Positions 42,774-48,881 of a stretch of DNA of 48,881 nt are shown piece after piece. The notes under the pieces were generated by a model. The model ran no database searches. It was given only the letters and a program-made list of their open reading frames with translations, and was not told where the DNA came from. This DNA comes from a virus. How positions within the stretch are numbered: position 1 is the first letter of the stretch; every line of letters begins with the position of its first letter. The DNA lies in IMG/VR virus record IMGVR_UViG_3300028571_000040, positions 1 through 48,881 of that record. One strand, given 5' to 3'. The position numbers and the translations under genes were made by a program.

Positions 42774-43502
42774 ATGGTATTAATACCAAAGCCGCCTGAT
42801 TTTACTTTGCAGGCAATCAAGCAAAAAACAGAACATGAATGGAATTCATCCGTGAACAAGCGCGGGCGTATCATGGGCCATATGATAGGCACAGAATGCG
42901 CTAGAGCGTTATATTACGCTATTCACAATGAACAATCACGATATGTCACATATGACAAGGCGTGGCGTTTTGAGGATTCCATGCGTAATACAAAAACCAT
43001 GGCCAATAGACTTGGATTATCTGGCATTGAAGTTTATGAATTAAATAGCGAAGGCAAAAGACATTCATATTCATTTTTTGACAGTAAATTACAGGATCAT
43101 TGCGATGGTGTATTGATCGGTCTAAAGCAGGCGACTTCAACAAAGCATATATGGCAAAATAAAACCATAGATGAAAGCGATTTGAAAAAATTCAGAAAGC
43201 TAAAAGATCAATATGATATTAAATTAGTTTTGAAAAAGTTTAATGAAAAGTTTTATGCCCGTGCCCAGCTTCTTATGCATTACTTGCAGATTGATCGGCA
43301 TTATATGACGCTATGCATTTCAGGTGCGGTGGATGTCGATGCCTGTCGTACGGAATACGATCCAGATTTTTGTGAAATGCAGATTGACAGGATACGCCGC
43401 ATATTAGAAACTACAACGGAACCAGTACGCATTAATGACAGGCCAGATTTTTGGTTATGCCGTATGTGTGAATTTAAAGGAAAATGCCACAACAATGCCT
43501 AA
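42774..43502 (+). CDS. PD-(D/E)XK nuclease (RecB/Cas4-like) with a changed catalytic Glu
   Basis: The start was set at ATG 42774 because GGGGA precedes it by 6-7 bases; ATG 42762 is the alternative. The product has ECARALYYAI at the front, LQDHCDGVLIGL (D115 in the 42762 numbering), then HIWQNKT and CRMCEFKGKCHNN at the end, a RecB-like architecture with an Fe-S-type Cys cluster. In related phage nucleases the third motif reads E-x-K-T; here it is Q132-N-K134. The family processes DNA ends in recombination together with Sak4. The Glu to Gln change may reduce or abolish cleavage. Confidence 0.82.
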   Translation: MVLIPKPPDFTLQAIKQKTEHEWNSSVNKRGRIMGHMIGTECARALYYAIHNEQSRYVTYDKAWRFEDSMRNTKTMANRLGLSGIEVYELNSEGKRHSYSFFDSKLQDHCDGVLIGLKQATSTKHIWQNKTIDESDLKKFRKLKDQYDIKLVLKKFNEKFYARAQLLMHYLQIDRHYMTLCISGAVDVDACRTEYDPDFCEMQIDRIRRILETTTEPVRINDRPDFWLCRMCEFKGKCHNNA

Positions 43503-46500
43503 AGAGCCACGGCCATATCAAACCGCATCGGTTCAATCCCTTTTCGACTGGCTTTTTACTAAGCCGTCGAAAGGGAACCCTTTAATTGTAAGCCCGGTAG
43601 GCAGTGGTAAAGCTCTAATTAATGCAATGGTCATTAATGAAATTCACAAGCTATACCCGCGCACGCGCATTTTATGTGTTACCCACGTTAAAGAACTGCT
43701 AACGCAAAACGCGGATGAATTGCGAGATTTCTATCCCGATGCTGATTACGGTTTTTATTGCGCCAGCCTTGGCATTAAGCGATTACACAATGATATCACG
43801 TTTGCCAGCATTCAAAGTATTTATAACAAAGCTCATAACCTAAACCGCGCGCCGGAAGTTATATTAATAGATGAGTGCTTTGCTGGAGATACATTAATAA
43901 ACACTAATAGCGGCCCGAAAAGAATTGACAAGGTGAGTCCGGGCGACATAGTGTATAATGCGACTGGAATGGGCGAAGTATTGGCTGTTTCAAAAAAACA
44001 AACAAATGTTATATATAGGATAAAATTAAATGACGGATCAGAAATCAGATGCACTGGAAACCATCCTATACTATCAGAACACGGATGGACTACAGCTCGA
44101 GAACTGGGGCCGGGGCAGCAGCTTTTTAGCATACAAAATATGCCTGAATTGTGGGAAAAACTTTCATCCGTTCAGAACGATGGTGAAAAGTCGAGGGAAA
44201 ATGATGGAAAAGCCACAATCGAGAAAAGCATTTTCAAAACAAAGGTTTTGTTCGATATCTTGCTCGAAGAAGATGGAAAATGCAATGTGGATTCCCGGCG
44301 CAAAAGAGAAAATGTCGAAAACATTAAAAAAAATAGGGCACAAGCCATTAATTCATGGTGGCAATGGTCGAGGGCCTACAAATCAACAGAAAAAAATGAT
44401 GGAAATTCTTGGGAAAGAGTGGGTTGCAGAGTTACCAATAAAAACATTGGCAGGTCACAGGAACGGAATATACCCCAATGCATACAAGGTGGACTTGGGA
44501 AATCAAAAGTTAATGTTAGCTATAGAGATAGATGGAATGAGCCACAGCGGGAAACGGAAAATTTTGGATCAAAAGAAAGACAATCGTCTTTTGTTGTTAG
44601 GGTGGAAAGTGTTGAGATTGAAGAATGCAGAGGTGGAGAATATATATACAATCTACAAGTCTCAGGGCACCCTTCCTACTTTGCTAACGGAATTCTTGTC
44701 CATAACTGTCATTTAATTTCACACGACGAAAACACACAATACCGCAAGTTTATAGATGAATGCAAAAAACTAAACCCTAATCTTGTTGTTATAGGATTAA
44801 CCGGAACGCCATTTCGCGCCGATAGCGGCCTTATTTACGAGGGCGAAGGCGCACTGTTTGACGGCATATGCTATGAGATTGAAATTAGCTGGATGATTGA
44901 TCAGGGCTATCTTGTTAAGCCCGTAACACCGCCCGTAAAAACTATTATGAATGTTGACGGTGTTAAAACGTCAAAGGGCGATTATATATTGCGACAGCTT
45001 GAAAAAGCCGTTGACGTTGACGAGATAACGCAGGCTTGCGTTGCCGAGATCATGGAATTAACGCAAGACCGTAACAAGGTTTTGATATTCACGGCAGGCG
45101 TTGAACATTGCACACACGTCCGCGACGCGATACGCGCATATGGTGTTACTTGCGAGATGGTGACGGGCGATACGCCGAAAACTGAACGCGATGAAATACT
45201 GCGACGATATGCGGCTGGAGAATTTAAGTATTTAGTCAACGTTGCGGTTTTGTGTTTAGATGAAAAAACTGAAATTCTCACTAGCGATGGATTTGTAGGA
45301 ATTGATGATATGACATATGATCATAAAATTGCTGCATGGAAAGAAGATGGTGGAGTTGAATTCACAAAGCCAGAAAATATAGTTAGAAGAGAAAGATTTG
45401 ATGATGAGGAAATGGTTTCATCTGAAAATGGCATATCTGCCAATATTAGAGTTACATCTAATCATAGAATGGTTATTAGGTGTGGCGGTCAAGATAAAAA
45501 TATAAAAGTAGTACCTGCAATTAATCTTGAAGGTATTTCTTGCTCTATACCAGCTTATGGCGATTGCGAGCCAGAAAAGATATATATTGAAACTCCAAAA
45601 AGGAAACAAAATGAGGATCAGCAAATTAGATCAACTTCATTTTCTTTAAGAAAAAGAGGATATTTAAAAAAAGATTCTTTAGAAATGTCTATAAAACAAG
45701 TGAAAAAACTTAGATCTATGAAACATGCTTCACCGCATGAACTAACGATAGATGAATGTAAGTTAATTGGTTTTTGGCTTGGAGATGGATCAAAATCTTG
45801 CGGAAGAGTAGTTATATCACAATCTATGAGATATAAAGACAATGTAGAGTGGTTTGACGGTATTTTAAAATCCACTGGAATACACCATTCAAGAAATATA
45901 AGAAAGAAAAAAGGCAAATTAACTAATGATGTTGTTTTATGGTCTCTTGCGAGAGGAACTGGTGGATACAATCAATCTGTAGAAAAGGGGTATTTTTATA
46001 TAGAGCCTTATTTAGAAAAAGACGGAACATTTTTATTTAAACATTTAAATAAAAATCAGTTACTTGCACTATTAGAAGGATTTTGGAGAGCTGATGGCAG
46101 ACATCATTCTAAGAAAAAAGTTAATAGAATAACTGGGTGCCAATATAAATTATATGATATTTTGCAATCAGTTTGTGTTGTCAGAGGTATATCAGCTTCT
46201 ATATCTAAACCAATAAAGCCAAGAAAATATAATCATAATATACAATGGTCATTTTCTTGGGGTGGAAGAAAAAACTGGAGCTACACAAAAAAATCTATAG
46301 TTAAAGAAAAATCATGGAAAAAAGAAAGAGTGTGGTGCGTTACATCGTCAACTTCTTTTTTGATATGCAGAAGAAACGGAAAAGTTTTTGTAACTGGAAA
46401 TACCACTGGCTACAACGTACCAAGCATTGACTGCATTGTTTTGATGCGTCCTATGAAGAGTCCGGTGCTTTACATTCAAACTCTCGGCAGAGGTATAAGA

Positions 46501-47241
46501 ACCGTATATGCCGATGGATATGATTTAACGACGCAGCAGGGGCGACTTGATGCTATTGCAAATAGTATCAAACCTGATTGTCGTGTTCTTGATTTTGGCG
46601 GCGTTGTTAAGTATCTGGGGCCGATAGATGCGATTAAAATAACGCGCAAGAATAGCGGTAAAAAAGATAAGGACGCGCCGCCGGGCGATGCTATTATGAA
46701 ACGCTGCCCGGCATGTGGTTTTGAATGCTTTGCAGCGCAGCGTTATTGTTATAATTGCTCATATAATTTCTTGCAAGAAAGCTTAAGCCCGACGGCGGAT
46801 AAAGGAAGTTATTTGCTTAGTGCAGATGAGCCGCCGCGAATTGTTTCTGTATTATCTATGACTGTTTCGAGGCATATAAAAAAACATAAAGAAGGTGATC
46901 CTATTCCTAAGCCAACTATGAAAGTAACATACGGAACTTTTGAAGGTTCGTATTCTGATTTTATATGCTTTGAGCATCATGGATATCCGAGAGATAAGGC
47001 CGTTTCATGGTTTAGGCAGAATTTGCCCAGTCATGTTATTCCTAAAGACGTTAAAGAGGGGCTTTTATATAAAGATTTTTACCGGATACCTAGCGATATA
47101 GAGATCAAAAGAGAAGGTAAATACTGGCGGGTTTCAAAGGTTTTTTATAAAGAAAAAGATACACATAAAGAACAAGCAATTGAAATAATTAAAGATTATG
47201 CCGTCGATGATAAAAATGAATTAATTGAAATACCTTGGTAA
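43495..47241 (+). CDS. SF2 DNA helicase (DECH box) interrupted by two inteins
   Basis: The start was set at ATG 43495 (MPKEPRPYQTASVQSLFDWL), overlapping the nuclease stop. Without inteins the protein would be 588 residues. Motifs: I PVGSGKA (Ala where Ser/Thr is usual), Ia LCVTHVKELL, Ib ASIQSI, II IDE-CH, III GLTGTPFR, IV VLIFTAG, V VAVL-TTGYNVPSID, VI YIQTLGRGIR; then a zinc ribbon (CPACGFECF, CYNCSY). Intein 1 splits DE/CH and intein 2 splits VL/TT. Splicing is needed to rebuild both motifs. It lies directly after Sak4, SSB and nuclease genes, so it likely serves replication or recombination. The exteins match each other in composition; intein 2 is more AT-rich. Confidence 0.9.
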   Translation: MPKEPRPYQTASVQSLFDWLFTKPSKGNPLIVSPVGSGKALINAMVINEIHKLYPRTRILCVTHVKELLTQNADELRDFYPDADYGFYCASLGIKRLHNDITFASIQSIYNKAHNLNRAPEVILIDECFAGDTLINTNSGPKRIDKVSPGDIVYNATGMGEVLAVSKKQTNVIYRIKLNDGSEIRCTGNHPILSEHGWTTARELGPGQQLFSIQNMPELWEKLSSVQNDGEKSRENDGKATIEKSIFKTKVLFDILLEEDGKCNVDSRRKRENVENIKKNRAQAINSWWQWSRAYKSTEKNDGNSWERVGCRVTNKNIGRSQERNIPQCIQGGLGKSKVNVSYRDRWNEPQRETENFGSKERQSSFVVRVESVEIEECRGGEYIYNLQVSGHPSYFANGILVHNCHLISHDENTQYRKFIDECKKLNPNLVVIGLTGTPFRADSGLIYEGEGALFDGICYEIEISWMIDQGYLVKPVTPPVKTIMNVDGVKTSKGDYILRQLEKAVDVDEITQACVAEIMELTQDRNKVLIFTAGVEHCTHVRDAIRAYGVTCEMVTGDTPKTERDEILRRYAAGEFKYLVNVAVLCLDEKTEILTSDGFVGIDDMTYDHKIAAWKEDGGVEFTKPENIVRRERFDDEEMVSSENGISANIRVTSNHRMVIRCGGQDKNIKVVPAINLEGISCSIPAYGDCEPEKIYIETPKRKQNEDQQIRSTSFSLRKRGYLKKDSLEMSIKQVKKLRSMKHASPHELTIDECKLIGFWLGDGSKSCGRVVISQSMRYKDNVEWFDGILKSTGIHHSRNIRKKKGKLTNDVVLWSLARGTGGYNQSVEKGYFYIEPYLEKDGTFLFKHLNKNQLLALLEGFWRADGRHHSKKKVNRITGCQYKLYDILQSVCVVRGISASISKPIKPRKYNHNIQWSFSWGGRKNWSYTKKSIVKEKSWKKERVWCVTSSTSFLICRRNGKVFVTGNTTGYNVPSIDCIVLMRPMKSPVLYIQTLGRGIRTVYADGYDLTTQQGRLDAIANSIKPDCRVLDFGGVVKYLGPIDAIKITRKNSGKKDKDAPPGDAIMKRCPACGFECFAAQRYCYNCSYNFLQESLSPTADKGSYLLSADEPPRIVSVLSMTVSRHIKKHKEGDPIPKPTMKVTYGTFEGSYSDFICFEHHGYPRDKAVSWFRQNLPSHVIPKDVKEGLLYKDFYRIPSDIEIKREGKYWRVSKVFYKEKDTHKEQAIEIIKDYAVDDKNELIEIPW
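43876..44706 (+). mobile_element. Intein 1 in helicase motif II (277 residues)
   Basis: It starts with C1 in CFAGDTLINTNSGPKRI and ends YIYNLQVSGHPSYF, ANGILVHN, followed by extein Cys. N-terminal block A, block B (CTGNHPIL), and C-terminal blocks F and G with H276-N277 are all canonical, so it should splice. Between residue 88 and about 238 there is no in-frame endonuclease: the sequence is rich in Ser, Arg, Asn, Lys, Glu and Gly with few hydrophobics (for example SWWQWSRAYKSTEKNDG). The same DNA in another frame encodes a nuclease (44030-44716). Insertion between Glu and Cys of the DECH box disables the helicase until it is spliced. Confidence 0.93.
44030..44716 (+). CDS. Out-of-frame Vsr/DUF559-like endonuclease nested in intein 1
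   Basis: A 228-residue open frame, +1 relative to the helicase, with TAGGA 9 bases before ATG 44030. From residue 36 it reads as a nuclease: a zinc finger (KICLNCGKNF, C38/C41; RFCSISCSKK, C74/C78), a basic linker (KEKMSKTLKKIGHKPLIHGG), then AYKVDLGN, LMLAIEIDGMSHSG (E166, D168, H172), DQKKDNRLLLLGWKVLRLKN (D180, D184). This matches Vsr-like/DUF559 (EDxHD-type) nucleases, some known as phage homing enzymes linked to split inteins. Its last 40 residues overlap intein blocks F and G, and its TAA lies in the extein. The first 35 residues are a shadow of the intein. Expression is inferred. Confidence 0.8.
   Translation: MTDQKSDALETILYYQNTDGLQLENWGRGSSFLAYKICLNCGKNFHPFRTMVKSRGKMMEKPQSRKAFSKQRFCSISCSKKMENAMWIPGAKEKMSKTLKKIGHKPLIHGGNGRGPTNQQKKMMEILGKEWVAELPIKTLAGHRNGIYPNAYKVDLGNQKLMLAIEIDGMSHSGKRKILDQKKDNRLLLLGWKVLRLKNAEVENIYTIYKSQGTLPTLLTEFLSITVI
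45253..46401 (+). mobile_element. Intein 2 in helicase motif V, with LAGLIDADG endonuclease (383 residues)
   Basis: It starts CLDEKTEILTSDGFVGIDDM, with block B at VTSNHRM, and ends WCVTSSTSFLICRRNG, KVFVTGN, followed by extein Thr. The penultimate residue is Gly rather than His, a variation known in other phage inteins. Between them lie two LAGLIDADG dodecapeptides, LIGFWLGDGS (171-180) and LLEGFWRADG (273-282), so the homing enzyme is in frame and looks intact. The DNA is clearly more AT-rich than the flanking extein, in line with recent acquisition. It sits between VAVL and TTGYNVP of motif V. Confidence 0.93.
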
Positions 47242-48562: not shown

Positions 48563-48881
48563 ATTTGAAGTATTTAACCGATTTACACTTAAGCTGCAAT
48601 TCACCGCAGAGATTAATGTAGAAGAAACCGCAAGCCTTTCTATAAAGCGCGGTGCCGCTCTGGAATGGGCCTATCTGGAAGGGGCCAATCTGGAAGGGGC
48701 CAATCTGAAAGGGGCCAATCTGAAAGGGGCCAATCTGAAAGGGGCCAATCTGGAATGGGCCTATCTGGAAGGGGCCAATCTGGAAGGGGCCAATCTGAAA
48801 GGGGCCAATCTGAAAGGGGCCTATCTGGAATGGGCCAATCTGGAAGGGGCCAATCTGGAAGGGGCCAATCTGGAAGGGGCC
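48555..48881 (+). CDS. Pentapeptide-repeat protein, N-terminal part (continues at base 1)
   Basis: AAAGGAAA lies before ATG 48555. The first 35 residues (MIKFEVFNRFTLKLQFTAEI, then NVEETASLSIKRGAALEWA) are a short N-terminal domain I know from phage pentapeptide proteins (V-x-N-R-x-x-x-x-x-Q-F-T-A-E-I, then a helix). From 48660 the A(N/Y)L(E/K)G units run to the window end: 14 full units plus four codons. The end is in frame with base 1. Overlapping the identical terminal 12 bases restores the five-residue register. Confidence 0.9.
   Translation, partial: MIKFEVFNRFTLKLQFTAEINVEETASLSIKRGAALEWAYLEGANLEGANLKGANLKGANLKGANLEWAYLEGANLEGANLKGANLKGAYLEWANLEGANLEGANLEGA
48660..48881 (+). repeat. 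Tandem 15-bp pentapeptide-coding repeat, right part (14.8 units)
   Basis: Same 15-base unit as at 1-270, with variation at the same three bases only (g/a, g/t, a/t at unit positions 4, 7 and 13). The array is cut by the window end after CTGGAAGGGGCC, which is identical to the first 12 bases of the window. Confidence 0.97.

Follow-up and report, generated by a model that had tools for sequence, protein, structure and literature searches.

The question raised by this phage locus is whether one stretch of DNA can code for a contiguous intein in the frame of its host gene and, at the same time, for a separate homing endonuclease in another frame. The window, i.e. the whole stretch of 48,881 nt analyzed here, is DNA of a contractile-tailed phage carrying terminase, tail sheath and tape measure genes. 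Its relevant features are listed below (slashes in motifs mark intein borders), and the natural start of the helicase may be a later ATG at position 43498 (MPKEPRPY...).

43435-47241, plus strand: open reading frame (ORF) of an SF2 (DECH) phage helicase with two apparent inteins, frame 0 (ORF list; Pfam ResIII and Helicase_C; phrog_16 DNA helicase, E 1.6e-81)
43876-44706, plus strand: first intein, 277 aa, Cys1...HN/Cys, in helicase motif II DE/CH (Pfam, NCBIfam, AF2 HINT fold)
43876-44154, plus strand: N-terminal splicing half of the intein, blocks A and B (N-half HMM, E 5e-27; NCBIfam intein_Nterm)
44016-44020, plus strand: TAGGA, Shine-Dalgarno-like, 9 nt before the nested ATG (sequence; Shine-Dalgarno-like sites recur in the 33-member clade of the window)
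44030-44716, plus strand: overprinted nuclease gene, 228 codons, ATG start, +1 to the helicase ORF (ORF list, profile matches, substitution pattern, AF2)
44141-44263, plus strand: zinc finger of the nuclease, C38xxC41...C74xxxC78 (cysteines near-invariant in 47 homologues; weak zf-FCS match)
44284-44538, plus strand: frame-0 linker, intein residues 137-221, stop-free and predicted to be disordered (AF2 pLDDT <50; flip of substitution periodicity)
44474-44629, plus strand: nuclease core P149..Y152..D155..E166xD168G..H172..D180..GW..R196..N199 (invariant or near-invariant columns; DUF559; I-Bth0305I fold)
44545-44706, plus strand: C-terminal splicing half of the intein, blocks F and G, the same DNA coding for the nuclease C-terminus (C-half HMM, E 1e-22; NCBIfam intein_Cterm)

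Judging from sequence comparisons and structural models, we assign a probability of roughly 0.9 to the reading that a functional contiguous intein contains an overprinted +1 gene, from which internal initiation yields a separate homing endonuclease; splicing, expression and cleavage are the inferred parts. According to this reading, ribosomes starting at the helicase ATG would pass in frame 0 through the disordered, stop-free linker and yield a helicase-intein precursor, which should splice. Other ribosomes would start at the internal Shine-Dalgarno/ATG and produce a separate zinc-finger nuclease of the DUF559/I-Bth0305I type. This enzyme would cut intein-free helicase genes, and repair would copy the element across.

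Identity of the overprinted nuclease

A first-pass annotation, made from the letters of the window, had proposed a Vsr/DUF559-like enzyme in this place. The 228-codon ORF, its +1 phase relative to the helicase ORF, TAGGA 9 bases before its ATG, and the zinc finger and core motifs (C38xxC41, C74xxxC78, EIDGMSH..DQKKDNRL..GWKVLR) were all found exactly as described there. As for the type of enzyme, the DUF559 assignment held in the profile search. Pfam DUF559 (PF04480) matched the window nuclease with E=9.5e-8 (32.3 bits vs a gathering score of 20.6), and 46 of the 47 nuclease homologues matched it at E <=0.001. The Vsr assignment held less well, since the window nuclease did not match Vsr proper (TIGR00632) and the homologue L003 reached 15.3 bits vs a cut-off of 97.85. 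A profile search matched the catalytic domain to I-Bth0305I at 3e-4, and Foldseek with the AF2 model of the nuclease (mean pLDDT 85.7; three rows from annotated phage records were left out of the AF2 alignment) ranked the I-Bth0305I catalytic domain first among PDB structures (E 6.6e-3, probability 1.00). As candidates for the namesake E, D, H and D residues, positions D155, E166, D168, H172 and D180 vary little or not at all among the 47 homologues. By profile and predicted fold, the putative enzyme is closest to DUF559 and I-Bth0305I (EDxHD).

I-Bth0305I (structure 3R3P; PMC3943268) belongs to the EDxHD homing endonucleases and is encoded in a phage group I intron. The two enzymes have related catalytic domains, and in both the nuclease is joined to separate DNA-binding elements. 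However, the window nuclease is overprinted in an intein rather than intron-encoded, and it carries an N-terminal zinc finger.

The first-pass annotation had also claimed that about 120 bases in blocks F and G code for two proteins. This overlap was found (44545-44709), but its size had been underestimated: the nuclease frame additionally covers block B (44030-44154), so that about 290 bases are shared with the splicing blocks. The nuclease stop codon lies 10 nt past the intein end and thus the last nuclease codons depend on the target gene.

Related inteins

For the survey, we used four scan seeds (the nuclease, the whole intein frame, the N-half alone and the C-half alone) and took the best 80 matches per scan. 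All counts therefore describe motif-seeded samples and do not measure how frequent the layout is among all inteins. At least 415 loci with both splicing halves were obtained, which formed at least 214 clusters at 80% nt. Here, we found a contiguous intein with the nuclease in at least 204 of the 214 clusters, always in the +1 frame. Four clusters (L018, L035, L061, L095; best 80 per scan) have a split intein with the nuclease between its halves, also +1, and the remaining six (same sampling) do not have this nuclease in that position: three mini-inteins, the Salmonella phage S16 uvsW, a Streptococcus phage locus and L402. The suggestion that an enzyme of the split-intein type has been overprinted in a contiguous intein is supported by these at least 204 contiguous clusters together with the same nuclease family in the four split loci.

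Of the 204 contiguous clusters (best 80 per scan), 192 have the nuclease as one full-length ORF. The other 12 gave partial coverage of the nuclease profile, several with short gaps, which look like deletion remnants. The first-pass annotation had named two findings that would speak against it, a +1 protein without nuclease profile match and frequent +1 stops in homologous inteins. The profile match proved significant, and a nuclease frame broken by a stop was observed in none of the 204 clusters (best 80 per scan). The intein-seeded scans, which guard against ascertainment by the nuclease seed, returned no contiguous intein with a stop-broken or other-frame nuclease and three nuclease-free mini-inteins (best 80 per scan). 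Mini-inteins without nuclease occupy the same site in L472, L339 and L352, and C-terminal nuclease pieces alone were kept in L361, L374, L387, L400, L444, L462 and L113.

Most inteins of this set are inserted at DE/CH, with the variants DE/CQ and DE/S. When phage records were searched by tblastn, intein-frame and nuclease-frame queries matched the same Vibrio phage genes one base apart. The nuclease lies +1 to a single annotated helicase-type CDS in Pseudomonas phage MR14, in the Vibrio phages CP-T1, 159E43-1b, 103E44.1, 1.194.O, 1.088.O and K391, and in Corynebacterium phage phi673. Genome annotation misses the overprinted gene: in 40 nuclease-matched phage records, the host CDS (helicase, sometimes hypothetical or coil-containing protein) is all that is annotated there. 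A scan of viral_contigs with a single nuclease sequence gave no match and an alignment query was needed; a search of plasmids with the nuclease was also negative.

Mobility

An empty site (DE/CHHVLRDNKW) was found in the Vibrio phages 1.251.O and 1.024.O, and phage 1.194.O carries the intein there (extein identity 83-85%). In three pairs of loci, the differences in the intein and in its two flanks were as follows: 0/828, 28/381 and 155/1413 (L431/L434); 0/840, 69/617 and 35/1226 (L291/L295); 11/828, 62/357 and 164/936 (L249/L250). In each pair, the inteins resemble each other much more closely than the exteins do, and the flanking difference closest to an intein border is 4 to 45 nt away from it. 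Mobility is indicated by the empty sites and by the occurrence of identical inteins in helicases that have diverged, and these comparisons establish computationally that the intein-nuclease unit moves horizontally. Homing, i.e. cleavage of the empty allele and copying by repair, would explain both the empty sites and the identity tracts that are limited to the intein.

Once fixed, a homing endonuclease should decay. The wide conservation and rare loss of the nuclease in our set (motif-seeded, best 80 per scan) might therefore mean that it is real and expressed but no longer homing, and was retained for a different function, for example in phage competition or regulation. However, its patchy presence, the closely related empty sites, the mini-inteins, the likely deletion remnants and the intein-limited identity tracts look like an active homing cycle. 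We consider such a different role improbable, although motif-seeded sampling may hide decayed copies.

Start of the nuclease gene

In the window, an in-frame TAA (44027-44029) adjoins the nested ATG and the nuclease frame opens at that ATG, so that only a slip at this very point would allow the nuclease to begin further upstream. In the 33-member clade of the window the nested ATG recurs near intein+157, typically over the frame-0 motif L-S-N/D-G, and GGAG/GAGG-like bases often stand before it. Of the 204 contiguous clusters (motif-seeded, best 80 per scan), 122 have an ATG with a 4-base Shine-Dalgarno-like match and 28 an ATG without any; such 4-base motifs are short enough to occur by chance too. 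The nuclease stop lies inside the intein in 186 of the 204 clusters (best 80 per scan), most often 8 nt before the intein end, and thus the gene is usually contained within the mobile unit. The Shine-Dalgarno-like site, the in-frame stop before the ATG and the purifying selection on that frame point to a nuclease that is made as a separate protein.

Alternatively, the nuclease might be made without an internal start, by +1 ribosomal frameshifting, as a fusion of the N-intein with the nuclease. The two frames do overlap in the N-half, and in some homologues (e.g., L279, L409) the +1 frame is open upstream of the ATG. However, the TAA abutting the ATG in the window argues against such a fusion, and about 20 of the 33 clade members open their +1 frame at the ATG or not more than 9 nt upstream of it, which leaves almost no room for a slip. 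Considering also the Shine-Dalgarno-like bases before a recurrent ATG, we find frameshifting hard to believe, and internal initiation remains the preferred reading.

The intein frame

The first-pass annotation had described intact splicing blocks, and this was confirmed by profile searches: the intein frame of the window matched Pfam Intein_splicing at 2e-15, and both NCBIfam intein_Nterm and intein_Cterm exceeded their cut-offs. The window intein has the features of class 1 HINT domains, i.e. both splicing regions, Cys1, the block B T..H, the terminal His-Asn and a Cys at +1. In the AF2 model, the splicing halves reached pLDDT values of 94-98 and the linker (residues 137-221) stayed below 50; the best PDB match of the predicted fold was the gp41-1 intein. 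Cys1, the block B T..H and the terminal HN/C are conserved among the related inteins. From this intact HINT domain we infer that the intein splices.

The closest published case that we found is the ShiLan domain (PMC11855218), where an HNH gene lies out of frame in a methylase insertion that has no detectable splicing domain. There, as in the window, a mobile insertion is stop-free in the host frame and another frame of the same DNA encodes an endonuclease. However, ShiLan involves an HNH enzyme in the third frame, a GTG start without ribosome binding site and a methylase host, whereas the window family involves a HINT domain, a DUF559/I-Bth0305I-type enzyme in +1, an ATG mostly with Shine-Dalgarno-like bases, and an insertion in helicase motif II. 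Since the window has a splicing domain, its in-frame product differs in this respect from one of the ShiLan type. A rival view, modeled on the proposal made for ShiLan, is that frame 0 codes for no functional intein and that the host protein just tolerates it; the predicted disorder of the linker would fit. Against this stand the two splicing regions above the NCBIfam cut-offs, the conserved Cys1, block B T..H and terminal HN/C, the confident HINT fold matching gp41-1 and the insertion site itself, because an unspliced insert in motif II should be harmful. We regard this explanation as very unlikely and favor an apparently splicing-competent intein.

Selection on both frames

To obtain the stop codons expected by chance, synonymous nuclease codons were resampled from the helicase codon usage of each locus. 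For 82 distinct contiguous inteins (13,547 nuclease codons), 710 frame-0 stops were expected and none was seen. For the window alone, the host frame had 0 stops vs about 10.3 expected, and in the converse test the nuclease frame had 0 vs 4.5. In the four split loci, 94 frame-0 stops were observed vs about 86 expected, and thus stop avoidance is tied to contiguity. Chance openness was rejected on the basis of this resampling and of the same layout in at least 204 distinct contiguous inteins.

The substitution periodicity was determined for 28 independent pairs. In the exteins, the third positions of frame 0 vary most (.337). In the insert, the first positions of frame 0, which are the third positions of the nuclease, change fastest (.244 vs.112 and.082), and the third positions of frame 0 are the slowest (.082). 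In the C-half the rates are.130/.069/.120 and both frames look constrained. This flip indicates that in the middle the nuclease is the maintained protein and frame 0 is mainly kept open, and that the splicing blocks are shared. Together with the disordered linker, it agrees with the earlier proposal that frame 0 is only kept stop-free across the nuclease. Taken together, these computations demonstrate dual coding, a conserved phase and constraint on both frames.

That the +1 frame is open by chance or represents a frameshift fossil (a formerly in-frame nuclease recently thrown out of frame and decaying, or assembly indels) can practically be dismissed, even though the nuclease occupies the usual place of an in-frame HEN domain between blocks B and F, since the phase is the same in at least 204 distinct contiguous inteins, the ORFs are intact and single with no stop-broken copy among 204 clusters (best 80 per scan), nuclease third positions change fastest and host-frame stops number 0 vs 710 expected.

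The geometry of the two frames offers a reason for the survival of overprinting in +1. In this phase, a frame-0 stop requires a T at the nuclease wobble position, and since every NNT codon has an NNC synonym, no frame-0 stop is unavoidable for any +1 protein. If these nucleases were encoded in +2, one or more frame-0 stops would be unavoidable for 90% of them (mean 2.06). This synonymous freedom is a sufficient reason for the phase to survive but no proof of cause, since common descent would give one phase too.

Split inteins and known arrangements

The nuclease of the split locus L018 is 42% identical to that of the window over 144 aa. In a quick nuclease tree rooted on free DUF559 proteins, the four split loci form one clade (SH-aLRT 98) nested within the contiguous ones, corresponding to one change of state; the outgroup covers about 38% of the columns, many forks are weak and the split loci were not sampled systematically. 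This topology suggests that the split arrangement of the fractured-gene type arose from an overprinted ancestor. In a wider scenario, which we would neither favor nor reject, +1 overprinting may be the old and dominant life mode of phage DExH-helicase inteins, favored since synonymous T-to-C changes alone avoid host-frame stops, and may give rise to natural split inteins when this avoidance lapses.

According to PMC12350094, which cites Dassa et al. 2009, fractured genes contain split inteins whose halves flank an EDxHD/Vsr-like homing endonuclease. L018, L035, L061 and L095 resemble this description in having a HINT intein with a related nuclease between the splicing halves. The window and at least 203 other clusters differ from it: they are contiguous, and frame 0 crosses the nuclease gene without a stop. 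In the window, host gene and intein are one open frame and not two ORFs.

In canonical bifunctional inteins, a LAGLIDADG or HNH domain lies in frame between blocks B and F. The endonuclease of the window takes the same place in a contiguous intein, but it is encoded in another frame and would form a protein of its own rather than a domain of the precursor. With in-frame fusion and the free gene between split halves as the other two, this would be a third mode of linking a homing enzyme to an intein, and it would keep two functions in one DNA stretch without joining the proteins. The roughly 200 distinct same-strand overlapping genes, each of roughly 200 codons, are suited to studying how two frames share constraint. 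They also offer a testable route from contiguous inteins to split ones such as gp41-1; split inteins of this kind are in biotechnology use.

Within the reach of our literature search, which took in neither Gorbalenya 1998 nor a preprint on actinobacteriophage inteins (bioRxiv 2025.01.02.630785), an out-of-frame DUF559/EDxHD enzyme was not described for any intein. PMC11855218 cites these two sources for overlapping frames, and the preprint may describe such frames in inteins. Since Corynebacterium phage phi673 is the sole actinobacteriophage with this nuclease among the annotated phage records, broad coverage of the present family there is unlikely.

Other observations

The S16 uvsW locus (L326, 2311-5037) was rejected as an example of the same case: its intein is split, the halves flank gp114.1, a TnsA-like/NUMOD3 enzyme, and this gene overlaps both halves in the +2 phase, i.e. 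a different enzyme in a similar layout. In L402 (3117-5614), a split intein interrupts a radical-SAM-like host gene, and its C-half forms an in-frame fusion with a different nuclease, which overlaps the end of the N-half ORF. Vibrio phage K459 (L481, 1143-4522) has a short intein at the same helicase site (protein of 694 aa vs 545 without the intein) and a CDS annotated as endonuclease directly downstream; here, a nuclease may have moved out of the intein.

The second insert in the helicase of the window (45253-46401, plus strand) begins with Cys, ends with VTGN/T and matches LAGLIDADG_3 in frame; it is apparently a conventional bifunctional intein. At the end of the window (48665-48881, plus strand), a tandem repeat codes for a pentapeptide-repeat-like protein (GANLEGANLKGANL) and runs off the window end.
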